From NCBI GenBank assembly GCA_903864515.1, contig CAIPFZ010000027.1:1-44644 (forward strand): a stretch of DNA of 44,644 nucleotides, in the 5' to 3' direction. This stretch comes from an uncultured bacterium. Lineage in GTDB: Bacteria > Patescibacteriota > Minisyncoccia > Phycocordibacterales > CAIZLB01. Below, in pieces: positions 11,890 to 15,457 of this stretch. Position 1 is the stretch's first letter. The number at the start of each line of letters is the position of its first letter. Below the pieces are notes generated by a model, which saw only the letters and a list, made by a program, of their open reading frames with translations, ran no database searches and was not told where the DNA came from. A program made the position numbers and the translations under genes.

Positions 11890-12999
11890 TTATTTAAGTT
11901 CTACAGGTATTCCAGACTTAATGATCATTGTCTTAAAATCTTTTGTGAAAGCCCCCTTTCCATCGGAATTCAAAATACCAGATTGTCCGTCATATGTCTT
12001 AATGTTATTAAGATATTTTTGCACAACGTTTGTGTCCAGAGACTTTGTTTCCTTTATACCTTTAGCAATCAACATAACAGCATCGTAAGCTGAATCAGAT
12101 CCAATTTCCACTTCTCTATTGTAAATACTTTTATATTTTGCTGAGAAATCTGCTTTAGGAGTAAGGGCGGTTAAAAACTCCCAACCGTTACATGTTCCCT
12201 CACAATTCTTTATAACTGTATTATCTAGTGTTATGGAATATGTTGGCATCTTAATCCCCAAATCTCTCATTTGTTTTCCATATACAGAGGTTAATCCGTA
12301 ACCATCTGAAGTAACAACAATTGCTTGCAGATCTTTTATTTGCTTAAGTTTCAATAAATCTGTTCTTACGTCTCTCTGATCTGTTGTTGGTTCGTAAACA
12401 AAACTCACAACACCACCCAATTTTTCAAATCTTTCCTTGAAAGCCATAGTCTGCGCCTTACACCAAACTTCATTAGCTCCAAGTATCGCTACGTTTTTAA
12501 CACCTTTAGCAAGCACGTAATCAGCAAGCTTTGCAGAAAGAATGTAATCATGAGGCCATGTGTTGAATATGAATTTACTTGTTTCGTTAAAGTTAGCATT
12601 TCCAAGACTTGGAGAAATGACGATTTCATTAGTAATTAAATCCTTTATAGGATCGCCGTTCTTTGACCAAGATGGACCAACGATAAATTTAACACCATCT
12701 GTTTGAGTTAGCTTTCTAAACGCACCAACTGTTTTAGCTGGGTCTCCTGCATCATCTTCATGTATGGCAACAACCTTCTTACCAAGTATTCCACCTTGAT
12801 CGTTTATTTCTTTGATTGCCAAATCCATTCCATTTCTAGCAGCTTCTCCCCATGAAGCACCGTCCCCTGATTCAATCAAGATGCTACCAATTTTTATTTC
12901 ATTAATTGCAGATAAATTGTTTTGATTCTTGTTACTGACCCAAACTCCCAAGACAATCAAAATGATTATCACTATTCCAATTATTATTTTTTTATTCAT
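11890..12999 (-). CDS. LivK-type substrate-binding protein, TM-anchored, long form (module 5)
   Basis: start reassigned to internal ATG at 12999 (MNKKIIIGIVIIILIVLGVWV); IKIGSILIESGDGASWGEAARNGMDLAIKEINDQGGILGKKVVAIHEDD. Confidence 0.9.
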   Translation of the reverse strand: MNKKIIIGIVIIILIVLGVWVSNKNQNNLSAINEIKIGSILIESGDGASWGEAARNGMDLAIKEINDQGGILGKKVVAIHEDDAGDPAKTVGAFRKLTQTDGVKFIVGPSWSKNGDPIKDLITNEIVISPSLGNANFNETSKFIFNTWPHDYILSAKLADYVLAKGVKNVAILGANEVWCKAQTMAFKERFEKLGGVVSFVYEPTTDQRDVRTDLLKLKQIKDLQAIVVTSDGYGLTSVYGKQMRDLGIKMPTYSITLDNTVIKNCEGTCNGWEFLTALTPKADFSAKYKSIYNREVEIGSDSAYDAVMLIAKGIKETKSLDTNVVQKYLNNIKTYDGQSGILNSDGKGAFTKDFKTMIIKSGIPVELK

Positions 13000-13046
13000 A
13001 TTATTTATATATTTGTTTAATTTTACCCCTCGAAAATATGTCAATT

Positions 13047-13094
13047 TGTTTCGTCCTTTTAGACTCATCAGGCAAGATACACATCTTGCGACAG
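13047..13094 (-). ncRNA. type III hammerhead ribozyme, copy 1
   Basis: minus strand: UGU C^GCAAGAU GUGU AUCUUGC CUGAUGA GUCU AAAA GGAC GAAACA; stem III only 3 bp (fourth position C/A mismatch). Confidence 0.82.
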
Positions 13095-13127
13095 TGGAAG
13101 TTTTAGGAGAAACTTCCAAACCGATTT
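13047..13127 (-). repeat. conserved hairpin+hammerhead repeat, copy 1
   Basis: near-identical to 13663-13743 and 14251-14331; includes GGAAGUUU CUCCUA AAACUUCC hairpin at 13096-13117. Confidence 0.9.
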
Positions 13128-13134
13128 GAAAAAT

Positions 13135-13623
13135 CTAGTGCCAACAATACTTAGAAGATGAATATCCCCCGATTTCACCAAATACTTCACAAGGCTTGGA
13201 CTTCTTTCCAATCATCAAAGTAAGAATTATCGGATTTTCTTCACCTCCAGTAAAAACTTGTTTGAGAATACTTTTCCAGATAGCAACATCTTCCTTTGTG
13301 CCGTAAAAAATCTTACCGATATCTCCGACACTCACGCATTCCTTTCCATGGCCAAACCCTCCACTTACGATAATGGTTGGAACCATCCAGCTCCAACACA
13401 GGCAAGCTACCTTGAACCCAGAATGTTTTTCCTCCATATTCATGTCAGAAATGACAAAATCAAATTTTGGACAATCATTTCCGACCTCATTGAAGAAATC
13501 AGCTGCGGAATTAAAAGTTGATATGTTGGCGTTTGGTAGAAATTCATTAATAGCAATAACTGCTGCTTTGAGATTTTCTGGAGTATCATCAACTATCGCA
13601 ATATTTTTGATATTGTTTTTCAT
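13135..13623 (-). CDS. response-regulator receiver-like protein
   Basis: IAIVDDTPENLKAAVIAI and FDFVISDMNMEEKHSG, REC-like N-terminus and DM motif. Confidence 0.6.
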   Translation of the reverse strand: MKNNIKNIAIVDDTPENLKAAVIAINEFLPNANISTFNSAADFFNEVGNDCPKFDFVISDMNMEEKHSGFKVACLCWSWMVPTIIVSGGFGHGKECVSVGDIGKIFYGTKEDVAIWKSILKQVFTGGEENPIILTLMIGKKSKPCEVFGEIGGYSSSKYCWH

Positions 13624-13662
13624 TTTTCTATACTTTCTACTTTTGTTTTAAAGATCTGGTTT

Positions 13663-13711
13663 CTGTTTCGTCCTTTTGGACTCATCAGGCAAGATACATA
13701 TCTTGCGACAG
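13663..13711 (-). ncRNA. type III hammerhead ribozyme, copy 2
   Basis: minus strand: CUGUC^GCAAGAU AUGU AUCUUGC CUGAUGA GUCC AAAA GGAC GAAACAG; all core residues present. Confidence 0.92.
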
Positions 13712-13743
13712 TGGAAGTTTTAGGAGAAACTTCCAAACCGATT
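13663..13743 (-). repeat. conserved hairpin+hammerhead repeat, copy 2
   Basis: hairpin GGAAGUUU CUCCUA AAACUUCC at 13713-13734. Confidence 0.92.
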
Positions 13744-13761
13744 ACAGTAGATACCAGTTAA

Positions 13762-14217
13762 TCATTGAAGCCTGCGAATAAACGCAAACTCAATACCGCT
13801 ACCGTATGGGACATTCATTGCGTAATCGAAACCATGGAAATGGTGAACCGCAAGAAAGACGTTACTTACAGACCTTTCTTGTCCAGGCTGTTGTGCCCTT
13901 CTAGACTCAGATGCAAAGACAAAACATTCTTCATTTCCCAACCCCTCCTGAATGACGTAATGAAATGGCAAGTAAGATGGACAAAGATCAAAGCCATCAG
14001 CAAGCGCTAAGTCAAAGAACTCCTTGCAAGGCACTACACCGGTGAGTTTGTATTTACAGCACCTCAACCCAACAAGCTCAACGGTTTCAATCTGAGGAAC
14101 TTGTCCAGGTAAAAAATGTCTTGCAATGTTTGGATATTTATTAACAGCCTTTTCTTGAAGTTGACGTCCGCTAATTCCACCAATTTGAAGACGTGGAACA
14201 ATTATTCTTTGGCACAT
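13762..14217 (-). CDS. hypothetical protein between ribozymes
   Basis: 151-aa ORF bounded by hammerhead repeats on both sides. Confidence 0.6.
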   Translation of the reverse strand: MCQRIIVPRLQIGGISGRQLQEKAVNKYPNIARHFLPGQVPQIETVELVGLRCCKYKLTGVVPCKEFFDLALADGFDLCPSYLPFHYVIQEGLGNEECFVFASESRRAQQPGQERSVSNVFLAVHHFHGFDYAMNVPYGSGIEFAFIRRLQ

Positions 14218-14250
14218 AATTTTTCTCTACTTGTTTTAATGACCATGTTT

Positions 14251-14299
14251 CTGTTTCGTCTTTTCAGACTCATCAGGCAAGATACACATCTTGCAACAG
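14251..14299 (-). ncRNA. type III hammerhead ribozyme, copy 3
   Basis: minus strand: CUGUU^GCAAGAU GUGU AUCUUGC CUGAUGA GUCU GAAA AGAC GAAACAG; stem II C-G to U-A compensatory change relative to copy 2. Confidence 0.9.
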
Positions 14300-14331
14300 T
14301 GGAAGTTTTAGGAGAAACTTCCAAACCGAGT
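14251..14331 (-). repeat. conserved hairpin+hammerhead repeat, copy 3
   Basis: hairpin at 14301-14322. Confidence 0.92.
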
Positions 14332-14336
14332 GTCAA

Positions 14337-14549
14337 TCAATAATCATCATCATAGTTAGGCATACGTCCGCCATTGAACCTTACATCCCTAACAATTGAT
14401 TCCATACCAGGGCCAATCTTTTTTGCCTCTTCCATTGCCTGACAGTAAAGATCCCCTGCAAGCCGATGATCATCAATTCGGCGGTCTTCTTTGAGACATT
14501 GCTTCATCAAATCATCAATCTTCTTCAGTTTTTCTCTTATATTACTCAT
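14337..14549 (-). CDS. small hypothetical protein
   Basis: 70-aa ORF, first cistron of the ribozyme-punctuated operon. Confidence 0.5.
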   Translation of the reverse strand: MSNIREKLKKIDDLMKQCLKEDRRIDDHRLAGDLYCQAMEEAKKIGPGMESIVRDVRFNGGRMPNYDDDY

Positions 14550-14673: not shown

Positions 14674-14701
14674 TTGACATTCAAGGATGTGCTGTTATAA
14701 T
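14674..14701 (+). promoter_or_regulatory. sigma70-type promoter for module 5 regulator
   Basis: TTGACA - 16 nt - TATAAT; overlaps the upstream ORF start, supporting the start at 14738. Confidence 0.7.
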
Positions 14702-14737
14702 TATAGTGTAATAAATAGTTACAATTTAAATAAATAT

Positions 14738-15457
14738 ATGAATTATCCAATATTAAAAAACCTTGGCTTAGACCAAAATGAAGAAAAGACTTATTTGTTT
14801 TTGCTAGAAAACGGAGCTTCCTCCCCTACTGACATTGAAAAGAAGATAGATATTCACAGACCAATAGTTTATAAATCACTTGAGTCCTTAAAGAATAAAA
14901 ATCTAGTAACTATTTCCCCTAAAGGAAAAAGAACTCTTTACATTGCTGAGTCACCAGAAAAGCTGGAATATATTTTTAGAGAATTAGAAAAAAACTTCTT
15001 TAATGATGTAGAAGATTTACATAACCTATATGAATTAGGACAAAAGAATAAACCAAAAATTACCTACAGTGAAGGAAAACAAGCTATTCAGGATTCATAT
15101 ATGGATATACCAAACACATTAGATAAAGATGCGGAGTATTATAGGTACATGTCTGTGCAAAATTCCAATCGTGAGAAGTTTCTTCCAAAAGGATACAGAG
15201 AATTACGAGACAAGAAGGGTCTTGAGAGTATGATTATCACAAACAAGTCTTCAAAGAAGGACAAGGTAAGGCTTGGTTCTAGAGTTAAGGTATTACCAGA
15301 TTCTTGTGGACTATTTGAATATAACATTGGGCAAGTGGTATATGGAGACAAGGTAGCGATAGTTGATTATGATTCTCAATCCGTAATCACAATCAATCAC
15401 CCTAAATTTGCAGAATTTCAAAAGAAGCTTTTTAAATTGTTATTTGAGAAGATCTAA
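14738..15457 (+). CDS. TrmB-like regulator (module 5)
   Basis: LKNLGLDQNEEKTYLFLLENGASSPTDIEKKIDIHRPIVYKSLESLKNKNLV wHTH. Confidence 0.86.
   Translation: MNYPILKNLGLDQNEEKTYLFLLENGASSPTDIEKKIDIHRPIVYKSLESLKNKNLVTISPKGKRTLYIAESPEKLEYIFRELEKNFFNDVEDLHNLYELGQKNKPKITYSEGKQAIQDSYMDIPNTLDKDAEYYRYMSVQNSNREKFLPKGYRELRDKKGLESMIITNKSSKKDKVRLGSRVKVLPDSCGLFEYNIGQVVYGDKVAIVDYDSQSVITINHPKFAEFQKKLFKLLFEKI

Follow-up and report, generated by a model that had tools for sequence, protein, structure and literature searches.

The window, that is, the whole stretch of 44,644 nt under analysis, holds on its minus strand an array of short ORFs separated by a repeat that has the structure of a type III hammerhead ribozyme. 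A hairpin abuts each copy of the repeat on its 5' side, and the array lies between a divergent TrmB-family gene at its head and a gene encoding a periplasmic substrate-binding protein (Table 1). The three copies in the window are the only clear ones in the whole genome (assembly of 934,535 bases in 77 contigs).

Table 1. Features of the hammerhead array in the window. Bit scores were obtained with Rfam RF00008 (Hammerhead_3) and with R1, a covariance model built from 59 elements.
Feature	Position	Strand	Basis and remarks
Periplasmic substrate-binding protein (Peripla_BP_6); gene outside the array, behind copy 1	11890..12999	minus	Pfam E 1e-44
Hammerhead ribozyme copy 1 (type III)	13045..13094	minus	RF00008 30.6 bits; R1 69.9 bits
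Hairpin of 8 bp directly 5' of copy 1	13096..13117	minus	sequence, fold; just past the stop of ORF 13135-13623
ORF, 162 aa	13135..13623	minus	weak receiver-domain match (Response_reg), Pfam E 4e-4, under the cut-off
boxA-like GATCTTTAAAA after copy 2	13646..13656	minus	sequence; family-wide enrichment; upstream of the ORF starting at 13623
Hammerhead ribozyme copy 2 (type III)	13662..13711	minus	RF00008 41.5 bits; R1 78.3 bits
Hairpin abutting copy 2	13713..13734	minus	sequence, folds
ORF, 151 aa, without family	13762..14217	minus	extra unit relative to congener G002
Degenerate boxA-like GGTCATTAAAA after copy 3	14234..14244	minus	sequence; among the non-matches of the strict motif
Hammerhead ribozyme copy 3 (type III), GAAA loop, U17	14251..14299	minus	RF00008 38.0 bits; R1 78.5 bits
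Hairpin abutting copy 3	14301..14322	minus	sequence, fold
ORF, 70 aa, first array unit	14337..14549	minus	homologue in the same place in G002, 54% identity
TrmB-family regulator, divergent, at array head	14687..15457	plus	Pfam TrmB E 1e-15; position typical of arrays

All three copies combine the CUGAUGA and GAAA core segments with closed stems I and II and an open stem III, as expected for type III, and the core pattern gave three exact matches against none expected by chance. Comparison with RF00008 returned E values from 3e-7 to 4e-4; every score stays below the gathering score of 48.5, and no Rfam family exceeded its own gathering score anywhere in the window, the shortfall against RF00008 being a matter of the curated threshold and not a structural feature. 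Cleavage is predicted between 13090 (C17) and 13089 in copy 1, between 13707 (C17) and 13706 in copy 2 and between 14295 and 14294 in copy 3, where residue 17 is U; the corresponding triplets (GUC, GUC and GUU) are permissible NUH sites. Stem II with its loop reads GUCU-AAAA-GGAC in copy 1 (13048-13071, minus), GUCC-AAAA-GGAC in copy 2 (13665-13688, minus) and GUCU-GAAA-AGAC in copy 3 (14253-14276, minus), and one base of loop I differs among the copies. In copy 1 stem III is weakened, CAAA replacing CAGA with loss of the outer pair. Judging from their sequence, it is very likely that these hammerheads are active or were so recently; some copies may be slow or dead, given the weakened stem III of copy 1 and the GUU triplet of copy 3.

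A previous sequence-only reading had described the closing pair of stem II as U.G, C-G and U-A in copies 1, 2 and 3, the loop as AAAA, AAAA and GAAA, and the catalytic core as invariant, all of which agrees with the sequence; the interval it gave, 13663-14299, contains copies 2 and 3, copy 1 lying outside it at about 13045-13094. It had further taken the pair-preserving change in stem II as a sign of selection on RNA structure. Within the three copies of the window this change is not significant, and its significance comes from the relatives. An alignment of 59 elements had 98.8% of its pair cells standard (32-47% in slid controls) and double changes at 13 of the 15 pairs; because these rows had been selected for pairing, covariation was rerun on core-pattern matches picked without any pairing requirement. 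The test was R-scape-style, a G-test with average-product correction and null alignments that preserve the substitutions per tree branch. Among 53 Patescibacterial elements, seven of 1128 column pairs were significant and all seven fell inside the hammerhead, three of them in stem II (all its variable pairs, the closing pair with E=0.009) and four in stem I. The same three stem II pairs were significant in 86 viral elements, where all eight significant pairs lay inside the hammerhead and the closing pair had E=0.03.

The proposal of selection on RNA structure is thus upheld by covariation in relatives, the stem II closing pair included. The three stems, for which the earlier reading had suggested a covariation check, did not fare alike: stems I and II were significant, while stem III varies too little for such a test and is in part set by the search pattern. 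Variation of stem II without preserved pairing, which that reading had named as evidence against its own proposal, was not seen, as pairing was kept in 53 of 53 Patescibacterial and 86 of 86 viral elements. At the level of sequence comparison, the repeats are by structure hammerhead ribozymes, presumably self-cutting, under selection for RNA shape. Of note, three elements of genome G029 (L046:1207-1273, L047:1212-1278 and L045:2648-2714) have near-alike flanks and differing, fully compensated stem I sequences, as if stem I had been exchanged as a block.

In the family, five of 15 genomes matched the core pattern, G010 by an unpaired chance match; in the order 41 of 297 did, some through chance matches of other lengths. 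Using R1, the element was detected in 91 of 397 genomes of the order and 44 of 382 of the phylum; named records that bear it include Zambryskibacteria, Nomurabacteria, Wolfebacteria, Lloydbacteria and other Paceibacterota, so that the host most probably belongs to this group too. A 'Phycisphaerales' record (L080, JAESRA010000017.1) shares its element with a Wolfebacteria contig (L058/L084), and its contig is probably misbinned. Moreover, at least 118 IMG/VR viral stretches (loci L165-L244) carry a compact type III hammerhead with an abutting hairpin, up to six per stretch.

The hairpin 5' of the ribozyme proved to be a family feature: in 109 distinct elements its median z was -2.24, against -0.15 at random sites, and its last pair lies mostly 0-2 nt from stem III. 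In the subset whose hairpin has a long A-rich loop, the 5' flank pairs with that loop to form an H-type pseudoknot; at least four such pairs were present in 24 of 35 of these elements, against 6.3 after re-dealing (maximum 13), and the helix occurs in 16 distinct sequences. As a general feature the pseudoknot was discarded, as outside the long-A-rich-loop elements none was found beyond chance. The held-out set as a whole gave 7 of 54 against 3.2 shuffled (maximum 12), which is not significant, the viral elements showed no enrichment, and the window copies have the hairpin without the pseudoknot (only 2 bp). Two further structural candidates were rejected: a likeness of the pseudoknot to preQ1-I, with no Rfam match in nine loci, and an outer helix between the hairpin 5' flank and the sequence following the core, seen in copy 2, which the family displays 21 times against 17 in shuffles.

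On the 3' side of the core, the motif G[T/A]TCTTT occurs within 20 nt in 48 of the 109 elements, against 2.9% of random sites, and held-out elements gave a similar picture (31 of 57, control 3.1%); only one of 77 viral elements has it. The motif resembles boxA, whose gamma-proteobacterial consensus is GYTCTTTAANA and which may sit near a start codon (PMC5725501). The strict form is missing from about half of the elements, copies 1 and 3 of the window included; among the window copies, copy 2 alone is followed by a clear motif (13650-13656). NusB is encoded in 13 of 14 array genomes, that of the window (G000) among them. The 16S leaders of the same genomes have weak boxA-like sites only and are a poor yardstick, so the boxA reading draws on the published consensus.

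With regard to the genes, the divergent ORF nearest to the first element on its upstream side was a TrmB-family regulator in 24 of 48 cases, compared to 2 of 46 downstream (Fisher p 4e-7), and a separate tblastn count gave 19 upstream and 1 downstream. The genome of the window has 19 TrmB genes, and each of four other genomes checked has 5-10; seven of the 19 are on this 44.6-kb contig, whose positions 1-24000 are unusually rich in TrmB-family genes and in paralogues of periplasmic binding proteins. Two or more elements were present in 30 of 104 strand-wise loci, several of which hold four to six; many loci have a single element, the contigs and fetched stretches being short. Medians are 46 nt between the ORF stop and stem III, 42 nt between the core and the start that follows, and 607 nt between elements; with the crude ORF method used, ORFs beside elements shared the strand in no more than about two thirds of the calls.

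Array ORFs are mostly short and without families. The ORF at 13135-13623 has homologues with a hammerhead behind them in two other genomes (ORFs of L042 and L045, 48-51% identity), and in G002 and G029 elements follow receiver-like ORFs homologous to it. Matches of the defence type (Csx3-AAA, restriction enzymes) are single occurrences, the Csx3-AAA match of one array ORF having a PADLOC E of 7e-60. An ORF family recurs beside elements in L146, L148, L156 and L363, and is probably the one matching Csx3-AAA. In the surroundings of other arrays, a LOOT RNA (RF03000, 81 bits) was located at L042:11501-11618, about 6.7 kb from the G002 array, and the arrays of L078, L072 and L063 have several tRNA genes no more than a few kb away, possibly integration sites.

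Taken together, position and statistics suggest a composite punctuation element in which the stop codon would be followed by a hairpin or pseudoknot, then by the type III hammerhead, usually by a boxA, and by the ribosome site ahead of the next gene. The whole array would be transcribed from one promoter, often beside the divergent TrmB regulator, which may control it; boxA in the leader would bind NusB-S10, so that RNA polymerase continues past terminators and untranslated gaps. Each hammerhead would then cut itself in the cell and every gene become a separate mRNA that has a structured 3' end and, at its 5'-hydroxyl end, hammerhead stem I as a cap that perhaps protects it. We consider this full account of processing and antitermination rather probable. 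Its extension to a Patescibacteria-wide, TrmB-headed cassette system, in which a mobile ORF carries its hairpin or pseudoknot, hammerhead and boxA and is read through and cut into its own mRNA, is put forward tentatively.

It is also possible, to about the same modest degree, that cassette mobility is the main role, each ORF and its element forming an integron-like unit that recombines between repeats, with self-cleavage secondary. The congener G002 shares with the window both the TrmB and the substrate-binding-protein flanks (the latter protein with 85% identity), yet has one element where the window has element, ORF (151 aa) and element, and this single element matches both window copies, the breakpoints inside such near-identical repeats not being locatable. 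Moreover, G002 has upstream a 64-aa ORF that shares 94% identity with one in an array of G029, a genome of another taxonomic family, and further ORF families turn up next to elements in more than one taxonomic family. By sequence, array units are gained, lost and shared, and the prevalence of short orphan ORFs also fits mobility. However, there is usually one tyrosine recombinase per genome, off the arrays (that of G000 is on another contig); in three of 14 genomes (G221:C18, G198:C30 and G029:C47) the best recombinase of the genome is 6-14 kb away from an array, and a recombinase beside the arrays was rejected as a general feature. No attC R boxes were seen in a comparison by eye, the repeat being a hammerhead, and the covariation is in keeping with an active ribozyme, something that mobility by itself would not call for.

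The units lie between two cis hammerheads, the arrangement required for an RNA of unit length bearing 5'-OH and cyclic phosphate, and these hammerheads could free ORF-bearing RNAs that ligate into circles as in retrozymes, maybe as a mobile RNA stage; we regard this as very improbable, given that the units are ordinary genes with leaders and that no circular or spliced products appeared when sought in other bacteria (Perreault et al. 2011, PMC3088659). The arrays might also descend from hammerhead arrays of phages or prophages and persist in the host as neutral remnants, considering that the viral stretches share the core, the upstream hairpins and the tandem copies. This is quite unlikely: ORFs 13762-14217 and 13135-13623 of the window gave no phage homologue, PHROGs matches are rare among array ORFs, boxA is essentially missing from the viral set, and stem pairing is preserved across distant genomes. 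The motif following the ribozyme could act as a promoter, or as a boxA that represses translation, instead of serving antitermination, but this seems doubtful. The promoter reading of the TTCTTTGAA motif is unlikely because no -10 box is enriched 15-19 nt behind it; repression has a precedent in the boxA of suhB, which lies near the Shine-Dalgarno sequence and represses translation (PMC5725501), and the array boxA is likewise near starts.

The role of bacterial hammerheads has been open since 2011, and a sizeable, uniform family that pairs the ribozyme with a boxA-like site and a dedicated regulator would give it a concrete form, the cutting of antiterminated polycistrons to single mRNAs. Such a role would also account for short orphan genes added to existing operons of Patescibacteria. 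Perreault et al. 2011 described hammerheads clustered around single prophage genes, observed that tandem hammerheads cleave in vitro and in E. coli, and proposed processing to single-gene mRNAs (PMC3088659). As in those clusters, several close hammerheads flank single genes here, placed in tandem between genes of varied identity in a likely polycistronic RNA; unlike them, the arrays belong to Patescibacterial genomes, keep one compact type III design throughout, and add the abutting hairpin or pseudoknot, the boxA-like leader and the TrmB gene to ORFs that are mostly not phage-like. With RF00008 they share the core, three stems, type III permutation and NUH cleavage site, although scores are mostly under the gathering threshold (one element passed in 13 loci).

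The type III hammerheads of IMG/VR phages are alike in core, 7-bp stem I with a UGUGUA-like loop, 4-bp stem II, upstream hairpin and tandem copies, and differ in their near lack of the boxA-like motif and in a pseudoknot that is not enriched. Integron cassette arrays likewise string together small orphan ORFs of one orientation, each followed by a structured repeat, and gain and lose units; their repeat is attC in place of a hammerhead, and here no integrase adjoins. Compared to the boxA of rrn and suhB, a NusB-S10 site, the array motif G[T/A]TCTTT[G/A]AA approaches the consensus, is near the start codon and occurs in genomes with NusB, whereas the arrays often have A at position 2 and G at position 8 and place the putative boxA after a self-cleaving ribozyme in many units. 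In the literature searched, which comprised papers outside subscription journals, we found no report joining hammerheads with Patescibacteria, the candidate phyla radiation, Parcubacteria, boxA or gene cassettes. The ribozyme class and the kind of arrangement are known; the host group, the boxA-like leader, the pseudoknot subset and the TrmB head are new.
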